This document shows, in pieces, positions 12,368-59,109 of a DNA stretch of 59,109 bases. The position numbers were made by a program, and so were the translations under genes. The DNA is from Nitrosomonadaceae bacterium (GTDB lineage: Bacteria; Pseudomonadota; Gammaproteobacteria; Burkholderiales; Nitrosomonadaceae). Numbering within the stretch: the stretch's first letter is position 1; each line of letters opens with the position of its first letter. The notes beneath the pieces were generated by a model that searched no databases, was not told where the DNA came from, and saw nothing but the letters and a program-made list of their open reading frames with translations. The stretch is from positions 1 through 59,109 of the forward strand of contig JAAZZR010000004.1 in NCBI GenBank assembly GCA_014237605.1, read 5' to 3'.

Positions 12368-13207
12368 TTAATGTATTGTTATCGCTTCTTTACATTCAAT
12401 ATTGAGGTCCGCACAGTAATTTTCATAGATTCCATCAAGGAATTTCCAAAGAGCATTACATGCTTCAGTAGTAGCAGCCAGAACCTCAGCTTTTTTCTCT
12501 GGTGTATCAGCGAACCTTTCAATTAAGGCCCATTCTGCCTTTGAATGGTGGATGTCAGCTTCTTGGTGTACTGTAAAGAATTCATAGCTATCAGGGTTAT
12601 TCATCCCATAGAATTTTGCCAAGCCATCAATCTTTACTGCGGCAATTTCTGGTACTTGTGACTCAAATGCATGCATAGCTGCTAGGCCTGCATAGAATGG
12701 TTGATTTAGGCAAATATCCCGAAAAGTTGTAACAAGATTTTCTGTGCCAGGTAAGGCAGCTGCATTAGCTAATTCTTTTTCGCTTGAGCCTAAAGCTAAT
12801 GCAAAGTTTTTCCAAAGGCCAGGATGATTTTTCTCACCATATTCTTCACTAATTAGGTTCTCTAATACTTCTTGCCGAACACTGATATCGCCACTATTAG
12901 TTTCAGTATGGAAATGAGGGGTATTGAAATGTACTGCACTTAAATAAGTTGGTTCAGCTAAAACATTATGAAAGTATTGTTCAGCATATTTACGTAGCTG
13001 ATGCTTTGAAAGTTTTCCTTCGGTCCAAGCGACATAGAATGGGTGTTTCAGGAGACTTTTAGATCCAATAATTGAGTCGACATCTTGCTTGAAAGTTAAT
13101 TTTTCTTTCATAATTTTCCTCTTATTTTTAACAGGATATGGATTATCAACAAGCATATCACTACCTAATAATATCGCCAAGTAAAATTTTGGCGGGCGAA
13201 AGATCAC
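12368..13207 (-). CDS. CADD-family (TenA/PqqC-like) diiron protein, probable noncanonical p-aminobenzoate synthase
   Basis: HPFYVAWTEGKLSKHQLRKYAEQYFHNV, ISEEYGEKNH, AFESQVPEIA, HQEADIHHSKAEWALIERF; functional start likely the internal MKEKLTFKQD. Confidence 0.8.
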   Translation of the reverse strand: MIFRPPKFYLAILLGSDMLVDNPYPVKNKRKIMKEKLTFKQDVDSIIGSKSLLKHPFYVAWTEGKLSKHQLRKYAEQYFHNVLAEPTYLSAVHFNTPHFHTETNSGDISVRQEVLENLISEEYGEKNHPGLWKNFALALGSSEKELANAAALPGTENLVTTFRDICLNQPFYAGLAAMHAFESQVPEIAAVKIDGLAKFYGMNNPDSYEFFTVHQEADIHHSKAEWALIERFADTPEKKAEVLAATTEACNALWKFLDGIYENYCADLNIECKEAITIH

Positions 13208-52251: not shown

Positions 52252-53409
52252 ATGAATGAAAAATCTAATTTGCCAATATCTACAGCAGTTGCTGTTTATC
52301 CGGTTACTAACCGTCAAGAATTAAGAAAATTTATTGACGTCCCCTGGATCGTTTACGCAAATGACCCTGTGTGGGTACCACCGTTACGTCTTGAGAGACG
52401 TTGGCATTTTTCTAAATCAAATCCTTTTTTTGGGCACGGAGAATGGCAGGCTTGGATTGCATACCGTGATAATAAACCAGTTGGAAGAATTAGCGCGCAA
52501 ATTGATCAGCTCCATCGTCAACGGTACGGAGCAGATACTGGCCATTTTGGATTATTAGAAAGCGTGAATGATAAGGAGGTGTTTTCAGAGCTTATGCAGA
52601 CTGCAGAGAAATGGCTTGTGGAAAGAGGGACTAAAAATGTAAGTGGGCCATATAATTTTTCTATTAATCAGGAATGCGGGGTGCTTGTGAGTGGTTTTGA
52701 TACGCCGCCAATGGTTATGATGCCGCACTCACCCAAGTGGTATGGGCAACTTCTTGAAGAGCAAGGCTATTATCCATTAAAGGATCTGCTTGCCTATTTA
52801 TTTAAGGCAGACATGGAAGTCCCAAAAATTATGCGTATTTTGGTAGATAAATTTTCTACCCGAGTTCATAAAAGGATGATACGTCGCAATCAATTTAAAG
52901 CAGAAATAGAGGTGCTAAGAAGTATTTTTAATGACGCATGGTCGGATAACTGGGGTTTTATTCCTTTTACTGAAGCAGAATTCTCTGAACTTGGGAGTAC
53001 ATTTCGTTTTCTCCTAAAGGATGAGTATATTCAAATTGTTGAGGTTGATGGAGTCCCGGCGGCATTTATGGTGGTATTACCAAATTTGAATGAGGTTTTT
53101 GCTAAACTTAATGGGAACCTATTACCATTGGGCTGGTTTCAGCTGATTAAAAAGTTAAAATTTGATCAAATTAGTACAGGCCGAATACCTTTAATGGGCG
53201 TACGCAAGAAATTCCAGAATACTCCGTTAGGGGCTGCATTAGCCTGTATGATGATTGAAGCACCAAGAGAAATTGGTCTTTCCAGAGGGATTCGCGAAAT
53301 TGAGGTGTCTTGGATACTTGAAGATAATAAATCTATGCGGGGGATGATTGAGAAACTGGCGGGCGTCCCAGAATATAAGCGCTATCGAATTTTTGGAAAA
53401 ACTTTATGA
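52252..53409 (+). CDS. GNAT-fold acyltransferase-like protein, candidate bacterial ceramide synthase (bCerS)-like
   Basis: FIDVPWIVYANDPVWVPPLRLERRWHFSKSNPFFGHGEWQAWIAYRDNKPVGRISAQID; C-terminal acyltransferase-like half; genomic context of lipid genes. Confidence 0.6.
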   Translation: MNEKSNLPISTAVAVYPVTNRQELRKFIDVPWIVYANDPVWVPPLRLERRWHFSKSNPFFGHGEWQAWIAYRDNKPVGRISAQIDQLHRQRYGADTGHFGLLESVNDKEVFSELMQTAEKWLVERGTKNVSGPYNFSINQECGVLVSGFDTPPMVMMPHSPKWYGQLLEEQGYYPLKDLLAYLFKADMEVPKIMRILVDKFSTRVHKRMIRRNQFKAEIEVLRSIFNDAWSDNWGFIPFTEAEFSELGSTFRFLLKDEYIQIVEVDGVPAAFMVVLPNLNEVFAKLNGNLLPLGWFQLIKKLKFDQISTGRIPLMGVRKKFQNTPLGAALACMMIEAPREIGLSRGIREIEVSWILEDNKSMRGMIEKLAGVPEYKRYRIFGKTL

Positions 53410-53433: not shown

Positions 53434-54282
53434 GTGCTGGAGGCTAAAATCCCAAGTAAGAAAATAGAGAAATTTGTTGCAATTGTGCTGGCTGCAGATC
53501 GTACCGCTAATGATCCGGTTGCTAACAAATCAGGTATGGCCTGCAAGGCATTTACACCGATTTGTGGGGTGCCAATGATAATTCGTGTATTAGATGCTCT
53601 TGAAGAGAGCGGCGTGATTGAGAGAATTGTTTTATGTGGCCCACCAGAATCCTCGCTGGCTGCTTGTCCGGAGTTGGAACAGCGGATAGGAAGTGGGTAC
53701 GTCACTTGGGTGCCAAACCTAGATTCTCCGAGTCGGAGTGCTAATAGAGGATTTGAGTATATAGATAAAGAAGCTCCAGTGTTCTTGACAACAGCTGATC
53801 ATGCGTTATTAACTCCAGAGATCGTAAGATATTTTCTTTGCGAGTCCAGTAAAGCTGACAGTGATGTTACTGTGGGATTGGTTGAACATAAAAATGTAAT
53901 GGCTTCTTTTCCGGGAACTAAACGAACTGTAATAAGGCTTCGTGACGGAAATTTCTGTGGCTGTAATCTTTATGCTTTTCTTAACCCTTGTGGTCGTAAT
54001 TTAGTTCCATTCTGGAGAAAGGCTGAAGATTTGCGAAAGAAACCATGGAAACTAGTTGGAGAAATACTGGGCCCAATAGCTATTTTGTTATATTTATTAA
54101 GAATATCAAAACTTAATCAAGCATTAAATGCTGTGTCTGCTAAGGTGGGCGTTAGATCACAAGCAGTAATCATTCCTTATGCTAATGCCGGGGTAGATGT
54201 AGATAAGGCAGAAGATATAACGCTTGTAGAATCCGTCCTAGAGAAAGAGGCGTTGGTCTCACGTGAGAATAACAGTACATAA
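53434..54282 (+). CDS. MobA/NTP_transferase-like nucleotidyltransferase
   Basis: FVAIVLAADRTANDPVANKSGMACKAFTPICGVPMIIRVLDALEESGVIERIVLCGP...VFLTTADHALLTPEIVRYFL; GTG start. Confidence 0.75.
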   Translation: MLEAKIPSKKIEKFVAIVLAADRTANDPVANKSGMACKAFTPICGVPMIIRVLDALEESGVIERIVLCGPPESSLAACPELEQRIGSGYVTWVPNLDSPSRSANRGFEYIDKEAPVFLTTADHALLTPEIVRYFLCESSKADSDVTVGLVEHKNVMASFPGTKRTVIRLRDGNFCGCNLYAFLNPCGRNLVPFWRKAEDLRKKPWKLVGEILGPIAILLYLLRISKLNQALNAVSAKVGVRSQAVIIPYANAGVDVDKAEDITLVESVLEKEALVSRENNST

Positions 54283-54338: not shown

Positions 54339-55415
54339 ATGAAGATAATAGATAAATATATTACACGTGAGTTATTGATTCCTTTCACAGTGTTAATTGT
54401 AATTCTGAGTGGATTATTTTCTAGTTTTAGCAGTGCTCGTTTTCTTGCAGAGGCAGTAACCGAGTCACTTGGCATCTTTGCTATGCTGGAGTTGGTAGGC
54501 CTTAAGACTTTAATTGCTTTAGAGGTGCTGGTGCCGATTGCCCTTTACATTGCTGTAATAATTGGGCTTGGCAGAATGAATAGGGATCAGGAAATTAATG
54601 TATTACGTTCTGCAGGAATTAGTGAGCACCGTATAATTTATGCTGTGCTTATAATTGCGATTCCAGTTGGAATTATAAGCGGTGTACTTTCTATGTTTGC
54701 TCGTCCTTGGGCATACGAAGAGAGTTATATTCTAAATGCTCAGGCAGAGGCAGAATTAAATACTGATCGATTTCAGGCCGGGCGCTTTTATGGAAGTGAG
54801 AAAAGTGGCAGAGTAGTTTACATTGATTCTAAGGATGAATCCGGCAAAGAAATGAGAAATATCTTTCACTTTGTAAGTAAGGAAGGTGGAAGTGAAATTC
54901 TCTTCGCTAAAGAGGGGATCCAGAAGCGTCCAGCTCGTGGGGAGCGGCCCCAATTACATCTATTCGATGGTAATTTATATAAACTTAAACATGCTTCTAC
55001 AAAAGATACAGTATCCCATTTTGAGAAACTAGTATATTTCGACGATGATAGTAATGAGCTGGATTATAAGCGCAAATCAACAGCGACTAGAACTCTGATG
55101 GACTCGGACCGTCCACCTGACATCGCCGAGCTTCAATGGCGGTTATCTCGGCCAATTTCAACTATTTTGTTGGCCTTAATTGCTATACCATTTAGCCGCA
55201 CTTCTCCTCGACGTACGGAGGGGGAGAGGATTTATTTTTACGCAGCTCTGGTTTTTGCAATTTATTATATCTTAAGTGGTTTAGCCCAGACTTGGGTAGA
55301 ACAGGGAATAATAGGAAGTGTACCCGGAGTGTGGTGGCTGTACGTATTAATGGCTGTTGTTTCACTTAGCTTGCTTTTTCCTAATGGTTGGAAACAATTG
55401 TTTCGGTCCAAATGA
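54339..55415 (+). CDS. LptF-like permease (YjgP/YjgQ family)
   Basis: MKIIDKYITRELLIPFTVLIVILSGLFSSF...RMNRDQEINVLRSAGISEHRI...SRPISTILLALIAIPFSRTSPRRTEGERIYF. Confidence 0.88.
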   Translation: MKIIDKYITRELLIPFTVLIVILSGLFSSFSSARFLAEAVTESLGIFAMLELVGLKTLIALEVLVPIALYIAVIIGLGRMNRDQEINVLRSAGISEHRIIYAVLIIAIPVGIISGVLSMFARPWAYEESYILNAQAEAELNTDRFQAGRFYGSEKSGRVVYIDSKDESGKEMRNIFHFVSKEGGSEILFAKEGIQKRPARGERPQLHLFDGNLYKLKHASTKDTVSHFEKLVYFDDDSNELDYKRKSTATRTLMDSDRPPDIAELQWRLSRPISTILLALIAIPFSRTSPRRTEGERIYFYAALVFAIYYILSGLAQTWVEQGIIGSVPGVWWLYVLMAVVSLSLLFPNGWKQLFRSK

Positions 55416-56485
55416 TACTAATAATTGATCGTTATCTTGCATTCCGAGTTTTTGTTGGTCTGTGTATTGCAACTGCAGTACTTTTACCCTTATTTAGCTT
55501 TCTAGATTTGTTAGAGCAGCTTGATGATGTAGGTAAGGGAACATATCAGGTTAAAGATGCCTTTGTTCACACTGCGTTAATGTTGCCGCGAAGATTTAGT
55601 CAGTTAGCACCATTTATTGCATTATTAGGTACTGTAATTGCATTAGGGGGGCTGGCGAAAAATTTAGAATTAACTGCAATGCAAGTGGCTGCTATTTCTC
55701 CTGTTCGTTTAAGTAAGGCGCCACTTTGTATCGGGATTATTCTCTTAATTTTTATTGCCTTAGTGGAGCAATTTGTAGCCCCCGAACTTCAGCAAAAAGC
55801 GATTTCACATAAGGCCGTAGCACTTGATAAGAGCGTGCAGCTTGGTAAGAATCTTGGAATCTGGACTCGAAATGAGAGAAATATATTACGTATTGGTGAA
55901 ATGATAACCACCAAAAAAGCTATAAATGTAGAAATATTAAATTTTGATAAAAATGGTTTTCTGTTGACCTATACGCATGCTAAATATGCTGATATTAATG
56001 ATAAAAATTTATGGGAATTACGTGAAGTCATTAGTAAGACATTCAGTGAGACAGAGGAAGAGATAGAATCTATAAGCTTAGACTCAATGCAGTGGAAATC
56101 ATTTGTGAACCCAACTGACATTTCGATTTTAAATAAGTCGCCAGAAAGTTTGTCACCTGTTGATTTATTTCAACATGTGCGTTTCTTAAAAGATACTGGC
56201 CAGGAAGCCGACGCATATGAATTGGCATTATGGCGAAAAGCAGGGGGGGCATTTACAACAATCGCAATGTTATTACTATCTATTCCTTTTGTTTTTGGGT
56301 CATCTAGGACTGGTTTTGCTAATAAATTGGTGTTTGCAGTAATGGCCGGTATTAGCGTTTATCTTCTTGACCAAATTATTGCAAATGCAGGTTTGTTGTT
56401 ACATTTTTCCCCAGCTTTTACGGCATTATCTCCAGGATTGGCACTGATTCTAGTTGCTAATATTTGGTTGCGGAGGATCCGTTAG
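55412..56485 (+). CDS. LptG-like permease (YjgP/YjgQ family)
   Basis: MILIIDRYLAFRVFVGLCIATAVLLPLFSFLDLLEQLDDVGKGTYQVKDAFVHTALMLPRRFSQLAPFIALLGTVIALGGLAKNLELTAMQVAAISPVRL; ATGA overlap with the upstream gene. Confidence 0.9.
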   Translation: MILIIDRYLAFRVFVGLCIATAVLLPLFSFLDLLEQLDDVGKGTYQVKDAFVHTALMLPRRFSQLAPFIALLGTVIALGGLAKNLELTAMQVAAISPVRLSKAPLCIGIILLIFIALVEQFVAPELQQKAISHKAVALDKSVQLGKNLGIWTRNERNILRIGEMITTKKAINVEILNFDKNGFLLTYTHAKYADINDKNLWELREVISKTFSETEEEIESISLDSMQWKSFVNPTDISILNKSPESLSPVDLFQHVRFLKDTGQEADAYELALWRKAGGAFTTIAMLLLSIPFVFGSSRTGFANKLVFAVMAGISVYLLDQIIANAGLLLHFSPAFTALSPGLALILVANIWLRRIR

Positions 56486-56656: not shown

Positions 56657-57880
56657 ATGACTACTTTTGTTTATATCGTTGGTGATAGTGAAGTTAACGT
56701 CTGGGGTTTAAGTGGGCGAGAACGATTGCATCGGATGCTAAAAGCTCACCATGAACGAATTACTTTGGTTGATGATCTTGGGAATATTCCTGATGGAGGA
56801 TCGGTATTATTTCTATGTGCCGATCATTTGTTTGATGCGAGGGTTCTATCAACACTAGTTCAGACAAAATCTAATCTAATTTTAGATAGTAATAGTGATC
56901 AAATAGCTGCCATTCATATTACTGATGGAAATGCGTCTAATGTCCTGGCAGATTTCCTGGGAGCAGGGGATGGGAATGCTATTTCTGTTTTCCCTCATTA
57001 TTCGCTAGATGAACTAAATTTGAATCTTCAACAAAAAAATCTGAAGAAGAAAGATGCTCCCTATTTATTTTTTATTAATAGGGCTAATTACAAAGTTCTT
57101 GAATCAGAGTTATTTTCAGGGTCATACAAGGGTGTTACTGATTTGGTAACCAAATGGGTTTGGCCGGCACCTGCTTCCTGGATCACTCACCTTTGTGTTC
57201 GTATAGGTTTGTCGCCGAATCATGTCACGTTAATGAGCTACGTATTTGCTATATTGGCAGGAGTTTCCTTTTGGTTTGGTAGCTACGGGATAGGGCTGCT
57301 GATGGGGTGGATCATGACATTCCTAGATACTGTAGATGGGAAATTGGCAAGGGTAACCGTTACTTCCAGTCGCTTAGGTGACGTTCTTGATCATGGTCTA
57401 GACATTATTCATCCGCCACTTTGGTATATGGCATGGGGGATTGGATTAAGCGCAGTTTCGCTATCAGTGTCTGGCTTGGAAGTATTGATATGGCTAATGT
57501 TCATTGGTTATATAGGGGGAAGAATATGTGAAGGGGTTTTTCAGTTCTTTGTGGGATCATTTGATATATTTATATGGCAAAAGTTTGATTCATTCAATCG
57601 ATTGATTACTGCTCGGCGCAATCCTAATCTAATATTGTTGACGGGTGGTTGGATTATTGATCAGCCTGATTTCGGGTTTTTTGCAGTGGTTATATGGCAT
57701 TTAATCTCTACAGCTATTCTTGTCATACGAGTAGTTTATGGCTGGCGTGCAAAATATCATAATGGTCCATTGAAGTCGTGGTTTGAAGAAATTGCACCTA
57801 ATCAAGAAGATGGAGGACTGGCAGTACGGATTTTTACCCGCACACCAGTTAGTATTAATGACAGAAGAGTTACGAATTAA
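56657..57880 (+). CDS. CDP-alcohol phosphatidyltransferase with N-terminal nucleotidyltransferase-like domain
   Basis: CDP-OH-P signature DTVDGKLARVTVTSSRLGDVLDHGLD; N-terminal VLFLCADHLFDARVLSTLV segment. Confidence 0.82.
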   Translation: MTTFVYIVGDSEVNVWGLSGRERLHRMLKAHHERITLVDDLGNIPDGGSVLFLCADHLFDARVLSTLVQTKSNLILDSNSDQIAAIHITDGNASNVLADFLGAGDGNAISVFPHYSLDELNLNLQQKNLKKKDAPYLFFINRANYKVLESELFSGSYKGVTDLVTKWVWPAPASWITHLCVRIGLSPNHVTLMSYVFAILAGVSFWFGSYGIGLLMGWIMTFLDTVDGKLARVTVTSSRLGDVLDHGLDIIHPPLWYMAWGIGLSAVSLSVSGLEVLIWLMFIGYIGGRICEGVFQFFVGSFDIFIWQKFDSFNRLITARRNPNLILLTGGWIIDQPDFGFFAVVIWHLISTAILVIRVVYGWRAKYHNGPLKSWFEEIAPNQEDGGLAVRIFTRTPVSINDRRVTN

Positions 57881-57890
57881 GAAAATACAA

Positions 57891-58859
57891 ATGGGAAATG
57901 CTAAGGTTGGGTTGGTATTCAACCCCCTTAGCGGACGAATCCGAAAACATGAAAGCACAATAAAGGGCGTATTAGGAAAGATTCCGGGTGTAATTCTGCG
58001 AGAAGCAAAGACAGGACTTGAGTTCAAAGAAACTGTTGATGAGTTCTTAGATACTAAAGTTGATCTGCTAGTAATTGCTGCTGGAGATGGAACAGTACAA
58101 GGAATATTGAGTCATTTATTTACAGAGTATGATCATATAGATTGGCCAATTCTTGCAATAATACCTGGCGGAACAACAAATATGACAGCACTAGATCTGG
58201 TTAAATATGATGACCCTGAGGATTCAGCAAGAAGGTTAAGTCAATATATTTCGACAAAGCCTTTACCTATTTTATTAAAAAAGAATGTGTTGTGCATTGA
58301 GCAAGCTGGAGTTAACAAAGTATATGGTATGTTTTTTGCAGTTGGAATTATAGCCCGCGCCGTAATATTCTCACGTAGTGGAATCAAGAAGGTTGGGATT
58401 ACAGGAGAGATTTATTCTGGCCTGATTATGGCAGTTTATTTTGCTGGATTACTTCTTAGGCGGTGTACTGGAGCATGGGCACCAGCAAATTTGACAGCCG
58501 TGAAATTGGCTGGAAAAACTTTCAATGGCCCTTATCAATTTTTGTTTGTTAGCGCGTTAAACCGTTTGTTATTTAATACGCGCCCTTACTGGGGGCAAGA
58601 GCAGGAACCGCTTCATGTTACATTTGTAGAGAAGCGTAAAAAGGCTCTAAGAAAATATATAAGCTCAATTTGGGCACTGATTTCAGGGAGATATGCAGCT
58701 CTCAAAGAACTTGACGGTTATCATAGCTATAATAGTAGCGGGATAGAGTTAGCAGTAGATGATGACTATATCGTCGATGGTGAGTTCTATCATGCTGTCA
58801 GTCAGGATGGGCCATTAAAAATTTCGGCAGCTGGCCCGGTCACTTTTTTGACTTGGTAG
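57891..58859 (+). CDS. DAGK-catalytic-domain lipid kinase (diacylglycerol/sphingoid/ceramide kinase-like)
   Basis: VGLVFNPLSGRIRKHESTIKGVLGK, LLVIAAGDGTVQGILSHLF, LAIIPGGTTNMTALDL; ATG at 57891 fits the domain start better than 57783. Confidence 0.85.
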   Translation: MGNAKVGLVFNPLSGRIRKHESTIKGVLGKIPGVILREAKTGLEFKETVDEFLDTKVDLLVIAAGDGTVQGILSHLFTEYDHIDWPILAIIPGGTTNMTALDLVKYDDPEDSARRLSQYISTKPLPILLKKNVLCIEQAGVNKVYGMFFAVGIIARAVIFSRSGIKKVGITGEIYSGLIMAVYFAGLLLRRCTGAWAPANLTAVKLAGKTFNGPYQFLFVSALNRLLFNTRPYWGQEQEPLHVTFVEKRKKALRKYISSIWALISGRYAALKELDGYHSYNSSGIELAVDDDYIVDGEFYHAVSQDGPLKISAAGPVTFLTW

Positions 58860-58890
58860 CCTATTAATAGATATTACAGACTGGTATCAA

Positions 58891-59109
58891 TGACAGATCA
58901 CGAATTAACATTGGATGAAGAAATTCCGGATAGTTTAGTCTCTGCAGTTTCCTCTATGGCGGCAAGACCAGTATCAGCAGACTTCTCAATTTTTGTTGAA
59001 GAATTAAGTGAAATAGATCAAATTGATAGACCTGTTATTTTTTCAGCACACGGAGTTCCAAAATCAGTGCCTATGGAAGCTGAAAAATTAAATTTACTTT
59101 ATTATGATG
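58891..59109 (+). CDS. IspH/LytB-like protein, 5' part only (runs off window), atypical N-terminus
   Basis: [42 protein letters not shown] matches the Isp[14 protein letters not shown] segment, but no upstream GFCAGV-type Cys motif. Confidence 0.55.

Follow-up and report, generated by a model that had tools for sequence, protein, structure and literature searches.

A sole LptF/LptG pair of sphingolipid-cluster type in the Nitrosomonadaceae, a family lacking LpxC and LpxB, as a probable exporter of a ceramide phospholipid

Background

In 2024 it was described as unknown how bacteria deliver sphingolipids to their outer membrane (PMC11324152). Among the closest described systems is that of Caulobacter crescentus, in which the permeases LptF2/LptG2 (CC_1156/CC_1155) are encoded within the phosphosphingolipid cluster CC_1168-CC_1152 and have been proposed, as a hypothesis, to transport phosphosphingolipids; at least 13 of the 17 cluster genes have orthologs in Nitrosomonas eutropha, and no N. 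eutropha ortholog of CC_1168 (LptC2) was reported (PMC11324152). Caulobacter also keeps LPS and a canonical LptF/LptG pair. So does E. coli BL21(DE3), whose second lptF/lptG (ECD_RS14855/ECD_RS14850) adjoins aasR-cerR-acp-spt and yghO. In such LPS-making hosts both cargoes would occur in the same cell, which makes them difficult to tell apart. Canonical LptF/LptG genes, as in E. coli K-12, are likewise paired; pepA, their usual but not universal neighbor, flanks them in K-12 and in three of the four regions compared from outside the Nitrosomonadaceae, in other families (Burkholderiales-type) of the order studied here.

The loss of lipid A genes in Nitrosomonas has also been published: Opiyo et al. 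(2010) found only lpxK in N. europaea and, for Nitrosospira multiformis, cited lpxA alone (PMC3087551). Within the literature that we searched, which took in a minority of subscription papers and not the holdings of bioRxiv itself, we found nothing that joins this loss to the LptF2/LptG2 hypothesis and its N. eutropha orthologs (PMC11324152), or that notes that the family's sole LptF/LptG pair is of the cluster type.

We analyzed a stretch of 59,109 nucleotides (JAAZZR010000004.1, contig C73 of its genome; hereafter the window) from a 1.27 Mb, 93% complete Nitrosomonadaceae genome. The family was represented by 37 genomes, including Nitrosomonas, Nitrosospira, Nitrosovibrio and uncultured members, among them the uncultured metagenome-assembled genome G005, the closest of the relatives examined.

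Results and discussion

The permease genes and their neighbors

The cluster at the end of the window comprises seven genes, all on the same strand:

52252..53409, + strand: GNAT-type N-acyltransferase, predicted ceramide synthase (CerS/aca, CC_1154 type); Pfam Acetyltransf_1, 26.7 bits; 45% identity to BL21 YghO
53434..54282, + strand: MobA-like nucleotidyltransferase (NTase), CC_1153 type; Pfam NTP_transf_3, 50.3 bits
54339..55415, + strand: LptF, sphingolipid-cluster type; TIGR04407, 327.9 bits (cut-off 230); in a clade with BL21 LptF2 and G169a, support 100/99
55412..56485, + strand: LptG, sphingolipid-cluster type; TIGR04408, 310.2 bits (cut-off 240); in a clade with BL21 LptG2 and G169a, support 100/98
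56657..57880, + strand: CDP-alcohol phosphotransferase, CC_1159 type; Pfam CDP-OH_P_transf, 35.4 bits
57891..58859, + strand: DAGK-fold lipid kinase, ceramide kinase CC_1160 type; Pfam DAGK_cat, 50.2 bits, and gene position in alphaproteobacterial clusters
58881..59009, + strand: truncated Tam41-like nucleotidyltransferase (N-terminal portion, cut short near the contig end), CC_1161 type; 86% across 43 residues in tblastn against the complete G005 gene

Both permease genes (54339-55415 and 55412-56485) are open frames, and they overlap at ATGA (55412-55415), where the TGA of LptF is overlapped by the ATG of LptG. Their products pass the NCBIfam equivalog models for LptF and LptG far beyond chance, and match the solved LptF and LptG chains. 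A preliminary description of this DNA had noted the translational coupling and placed the pair between a nucleotidyltransferase and a CDP-alcohol phosphotransferase, with no pepA neighbor. These observations hold: the overlap is read directly in the sequence, a MobA-like NTP transferase lies upstream and a CDP-alcohol phosphatidyltransferase downstream, and pepA is found at none of the 16 Nitrosomonadaceae regions compared.

The neighbors resemble genes of known sphingolipid clusters. YghO, CC_1154 and Neut_1100 have been grouped as the N-acyltransferase of ceramide synthesis (PMC9386255), and clusters of gammaproteobacteria and alphaproteobacteria likewise have the NTase beside the GNAT gene. 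The CDP-alcohol protein has full-length relatives (34-40% identity) in alphaproteobacterial sphingolipid clusters, where a DAGK-fold kinase gene adjoins the CDP-alcohol and Tam41-like genes. For the window's kinase, start codon context makes ATG at 57891 a more likely start than TTG at 57783. Gene by gene, the cluster appears to correspond to CC_1154, CC_1153, CC_1156/1155, CC_1159, CC_1160 and CC_1161 of Caulobacter, a mapping drawn through alphaproteobacterial loci of that gene order rather than from Caulobacter proteins. The window pair would thus be surrounded, like LptF2/LptG2, by CerS, NTase, CDP-alcohol enzyme, ceramide kinase and Tam41-like gene types.

The Tam41-like frame (58881..59009) has a weak, below cut-off match to the Tam41_Mmp37 profile. 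It stops after about 43 codons and continues in frame into a LytB/IspH-like fragment (59010-59109; 45% over 29 residues); the gene is full-length in the near-identical G005, and the last 100 nucleotides of the window are probably a chimeric contig end. Elsewhere in the window, the minus-strand ORF at 12368-13207 encodes a protein resembling the CADD/PqqC-like family, which makes p-aminobenzoate in Nitrosomonas. A search of a plasmid collection with the first 20 kb of the window gave nothing useful.

A single permease pair in genomes without LpxC and LpxB

The preliminary description had suggested that these genes could be a second Lpt permease pair. This part of the proposal fails: in a PF03739 search of the window's genome, the two proteins described here were the sole matches. 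Exactly two matches were found in nearly every one of 60 relatives; the exceptions in the family are G001 and G023, with none, and G033, with three. The extra G033 gene is a lone LptF, 58% identical to that of the window, which lies with a CDP-alcohol gene (L043, 8192-9274 and 12383-13666) at a second locus, apart from the main cluster and without LptG.

For the case of a sole pair, the same description had tied LPS export to this locus. That the pair is a canonical LPS exporter merely relocated beside lipid genes is suggested by its being the only pair in the genome, by its passing both equivalog cut-offs and by the presence of LptA, LptB, LptC and LptD, but the lipid A genes contradict it. 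LpxC was found in none of the 37 Nitrosomonadaceae but, as a single copy, in all 24 genomes tested from the rest of the order; LpxB, likewise, was found in 0/37 versus 24/24, with a sub-threshold match in one family genome. LpxC and LpxB are the genes on which lipid A loss was scored in this survey, and their absence agrees with the earlier report of Opiyo et al. (PMC3087551). Completeness and contamination limits rate 27 of the 37 genomes as good, and several are closed. An assembly gap was considered as a source of the LpxC result and is ruled out, as closed and 99-100% complete genomes also lack the gene. Together with the missing pepA linkage and the trees described below, these absences make a relocated LPS exporter very unlikely.

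The permeases do not branch with those of their order

In a tree of 83 proteins, the Nitrosomonadaceae LptF group with LptF2 of BL21(DE3) and with one LptF, termed G169a, of the two that gammaproteobacterium G169 encodes (support 100/99); LptG forms the same group with BL21(DE3) LptG2 and the G169a LptG (100/98). The G169 pair that joins this group adjoins CerS, NTase and aasR-cerR-acp-spt, whereas the other G169 pair has pepA. Constraining the Nitrosomonadaceae proteins to group with the order's canonical pair was rejected by the AU test (p=0.0007 for LptF and p=0.0097 for LptG). The phylogeny that the preliminary description had called for thus sets both permeases apart from the canonical pair. 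That description had also named two findings that would jointly refute a specialized permease: the first, a sole pair, is what we observe; the second, a position nested among the canonical proteins that close relatives encode, is rejected for both LptF and LptG.

Compared with the window, the BL21(DE3) pair shows 33% identity, and its cluster has no relatives of the CDP-alcohol and kinase genes. It lies beside spt (L235, 19921-22067) and is annotated as an LPS export permease; from its clade and neighbors, it may instead export a sphingolipid.

Alphaproteobacterial cluster pairs form a group of their own, joined by the pairs of LpxC-less alphaproteobacteria. The window permeases are of a beta/gamma lineage, unlike the Caulobacter case. 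Forcing the alphaproteobacterial and beta/gamma cluster LptF into one clade was borderline rejected (p=0.047, AU test; LptF only, with long branches), and we claim neither one origin nor two for the cluster pairs.

The remaining Lpt proteins are retained

LptD is kept in all 37 Nitrosomonadaceae and LptC in 34. The window's genome encodes LptC-LptA-LptB in the usual order, each above its NCBIfam equivalog cut-off, and its LptD is split across contig ends. In the window's genus, some 6 kb separate lptD and the spt operon (L066, 1-247 and 6287-7471; G005:C5, 26164-35705), as they do in G002; the distance is about 10 kb in G006, and no such closeness was seen in the Nitrosospira genomes G015 and G033.

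LptB of the window's genome shares 67-74% identity with its counterparts elsewhere in the order, outside the family, and 59% with E. coli LptB. Corresponding values are 41-51% versus 31% for LptA and 36-41% versus 25% for LptD (G005 sequence). The window LptF and LptG, however, show only 23-29% identity to their counterparts both in other families of the order and in E. coli. Since LptB, LptA and LptD are nearest to those of the order and the permeases are not, the bridge parts look to have been inherited with the order, which the permeases do not.

Canonical and window permeases share a fold family, paired genes and the residues that couple to LptB (E84 and R292 of E. coli LptF; E88 and R301 of LptG), which are conserved in 17/17 LptF and 16/16 LptG of the family; the canonical proteins differ in their pepA linkage and in being found with LpxC. 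Conserved coupling residues and full-length frames across the family, and the retention of LptC and LptD even in a 1.3 Mb, 99% complete genome, argue against the view that the Lpt proteins are left over, without a task, from an LPS pathway that has been lost. The small genomes would suit that view, but we regard it as extremely improbable.

The preliminary description had further suggested comparing residues at the lipid gate and in the regions that contact LptC. At LPS-contact sites taken from PMC6744409 and PMC5548808, the residues that contact LPS phosphates did not separate sphingolipid-type from canonical permeases: the position of E. coli LptG K34 is D in Nitrosomonadaceae, as it is in the majority of the order's canonical proteins, and that of R136 is mostly R or K in both. 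LptG Y257, reported with Y271 to be functional in E. coli (PMC6744409), corresponds to His in 16/16 Nitrosomonadaceae and to Tyr in 12/12 canonical beta/gamma proteins. A post hoc screen also returned LptF columns common to Nitrosomonadaceae, BL21 and G169a that are not canonical (window K57, A61, R123, Y127 and others); with two outside sequences only, these serve as a lead and not as evidence.

Sphingolipid genes and conservation of the cluster

The genes spt, acpR, cerR and aasR lie in a single run on contig C11 of the window's genome. Its serine palmitoyltransferase (SPT) scores 602.7 bits against NF047599 (cut-off 500), and SPT of at least 73% identity is present in 35 of the 37 family genomes; it is missing in G007 (79% complete) and G023 (89% complete). 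The best SPT matches in other families of the order reach 30-36%, the level of BioF/KBL-type enzymes.

Cluster order is conserved across four Nitrosomonadaceae genera, closed genomes included, and LptF/LptG adjoin CerS and the NTase in every cluster examined, including those of unrelated gammaproteobacteria and alphaproteobacteria. Some relatives keep LptF/LptG without the CDP-alcohol gene, or without the CDP-alcohol, kinase and Tam41-like genes, at the locus. The latter arrangement is seen in G006 (L036; 1.3 Mb, 99% complete), which keeps GNAT-NTase-LptF-LptG. With head-group gene content differing in this way between relatives, the precise cargo may differ as well. A second nucleotidyltransferase encoded at an alphaproteobacterial cluster, taken as the CpgD candidate by location alone, has a homolog (36%) in the window's genome and in most Nitrosomonas and Nitrosospira; none was found in the six g2 genomes searched, G006 or G018. 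The CDP-alcohol enzyme is missing at the locus in the three g2 clusters read and in that of G006. Joint loss of the two fits one pathway step and suggests a simpler lipid product in the g2 and G006 lineages.

Together with the retained Lpt proteins, the pair might instead export another surface lipid or lipid-linked polymer, such as a capsule or Kdo-bearing lipid, with the sphingolipid neighbors incidental. Such a cargo would accommodate the variable head-group genes and the Kdo-type sugar genes that some relatives retain close to the cluster or next to lptC. The constant association with CerS and NTase in unrelated lineages and the co-occurrence of SPT, however, argue against it, and we consider it unlikely. 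The sugar genes seen are a KdsB-like cytidylyltransferase (recognized by eye; L035, 1211-1960) near the cluster and a KdsC-like phosphatase adjoining lptC (L214, 6596-7081); persisting despite the loss of lipid A genes, they may serve a capsule or other glycan.

Copy number and LpxC outside the family

Among 398 Pseudomonadota sampled, nine outside the Nitrosomonadaceae carry the CDP-alcohol protein (E<1e-70). All four with 4-5 LptF/LptG matches (two pairs) have LpxC, and all five with two matches (one pair) lack it. Among independent genomes so clean a split would have a chance of 1/126; these genomes are not independent, as three of the five belong to one family. In alphaproteobacteria, where the permeases are of another lineage, the result is similar: a single cluster-type pair and no lipid A. 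The alphaproteobacterial genomes G271, G226 and G423, like the Nitrosomonadaceae, have no LpxC, one LptF/LptG pair and the cluster genes, but these genes lie apart from the pair and the permeases are of the alphaproteobacterial type; by pattern alone, they are likened to the LPS-less, sphingolipid-making alphaproteobacteria of the Sphingomonas type.

A proposed sphingolipid exporter

Because the lipid A genes are gone and the sole LptF/LptG pair sits inside a sphingolipid cluster, the pump most likely carries a sphingolipid, instead of LPS, to the cell surface. We think it probable that the Nitrosomonadaceae LptF and LptG serve as the membrane subunit pair in an LptB2FGC-type ABC transporter. 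Its cargo would be an anionic ceramide phospholipid resembling ceramide phosphoglycerate (CPG/CPG2), which it would extract from the inner membrane and hand over to the LptC-LptA-LptD bridge that leads to the outer membrane. The family would have lost lipid A synthesis and the canonical, pepA-linked pair while retaining the LptB, LptC, LptA and LptD of its order, which would now partner with the permeases encoded between the ceramide synthase and head-group genes. Three parts of this model are inferred: the synthesis of such a lipid, its role as the cargo, and the partnership of LptB/C/A/D with these permeases. Export of the neighbors' lipid by a specialized permease, as first proposed, is thus well supported by comparative genomics, without the notion of a second pair. 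In Caulobacter the canonical pair and LPS persist; in the Nitrosomonadaceae the cluster pair stands alone. We lean slightly toward the broader reading that, in the whole family, the exchange of no more than the two permease subunits made an LPS exporter into one dedicated to sphingolipids, with LptB/C/A/D accepting a pair from another lineage and a different cargo.

Lpt genes, or the annotation "LPS export permease", are accordingly no proof of LPS production. The Nitrosomonadaceae are a natural knockout, with Lpt proteins but without lipid A, in which the transport question is directly testable in cultivable environmental bacteria. Such an exporter would also suggest that the choice of cargo lies in LptF/LptG and not in the bridge.
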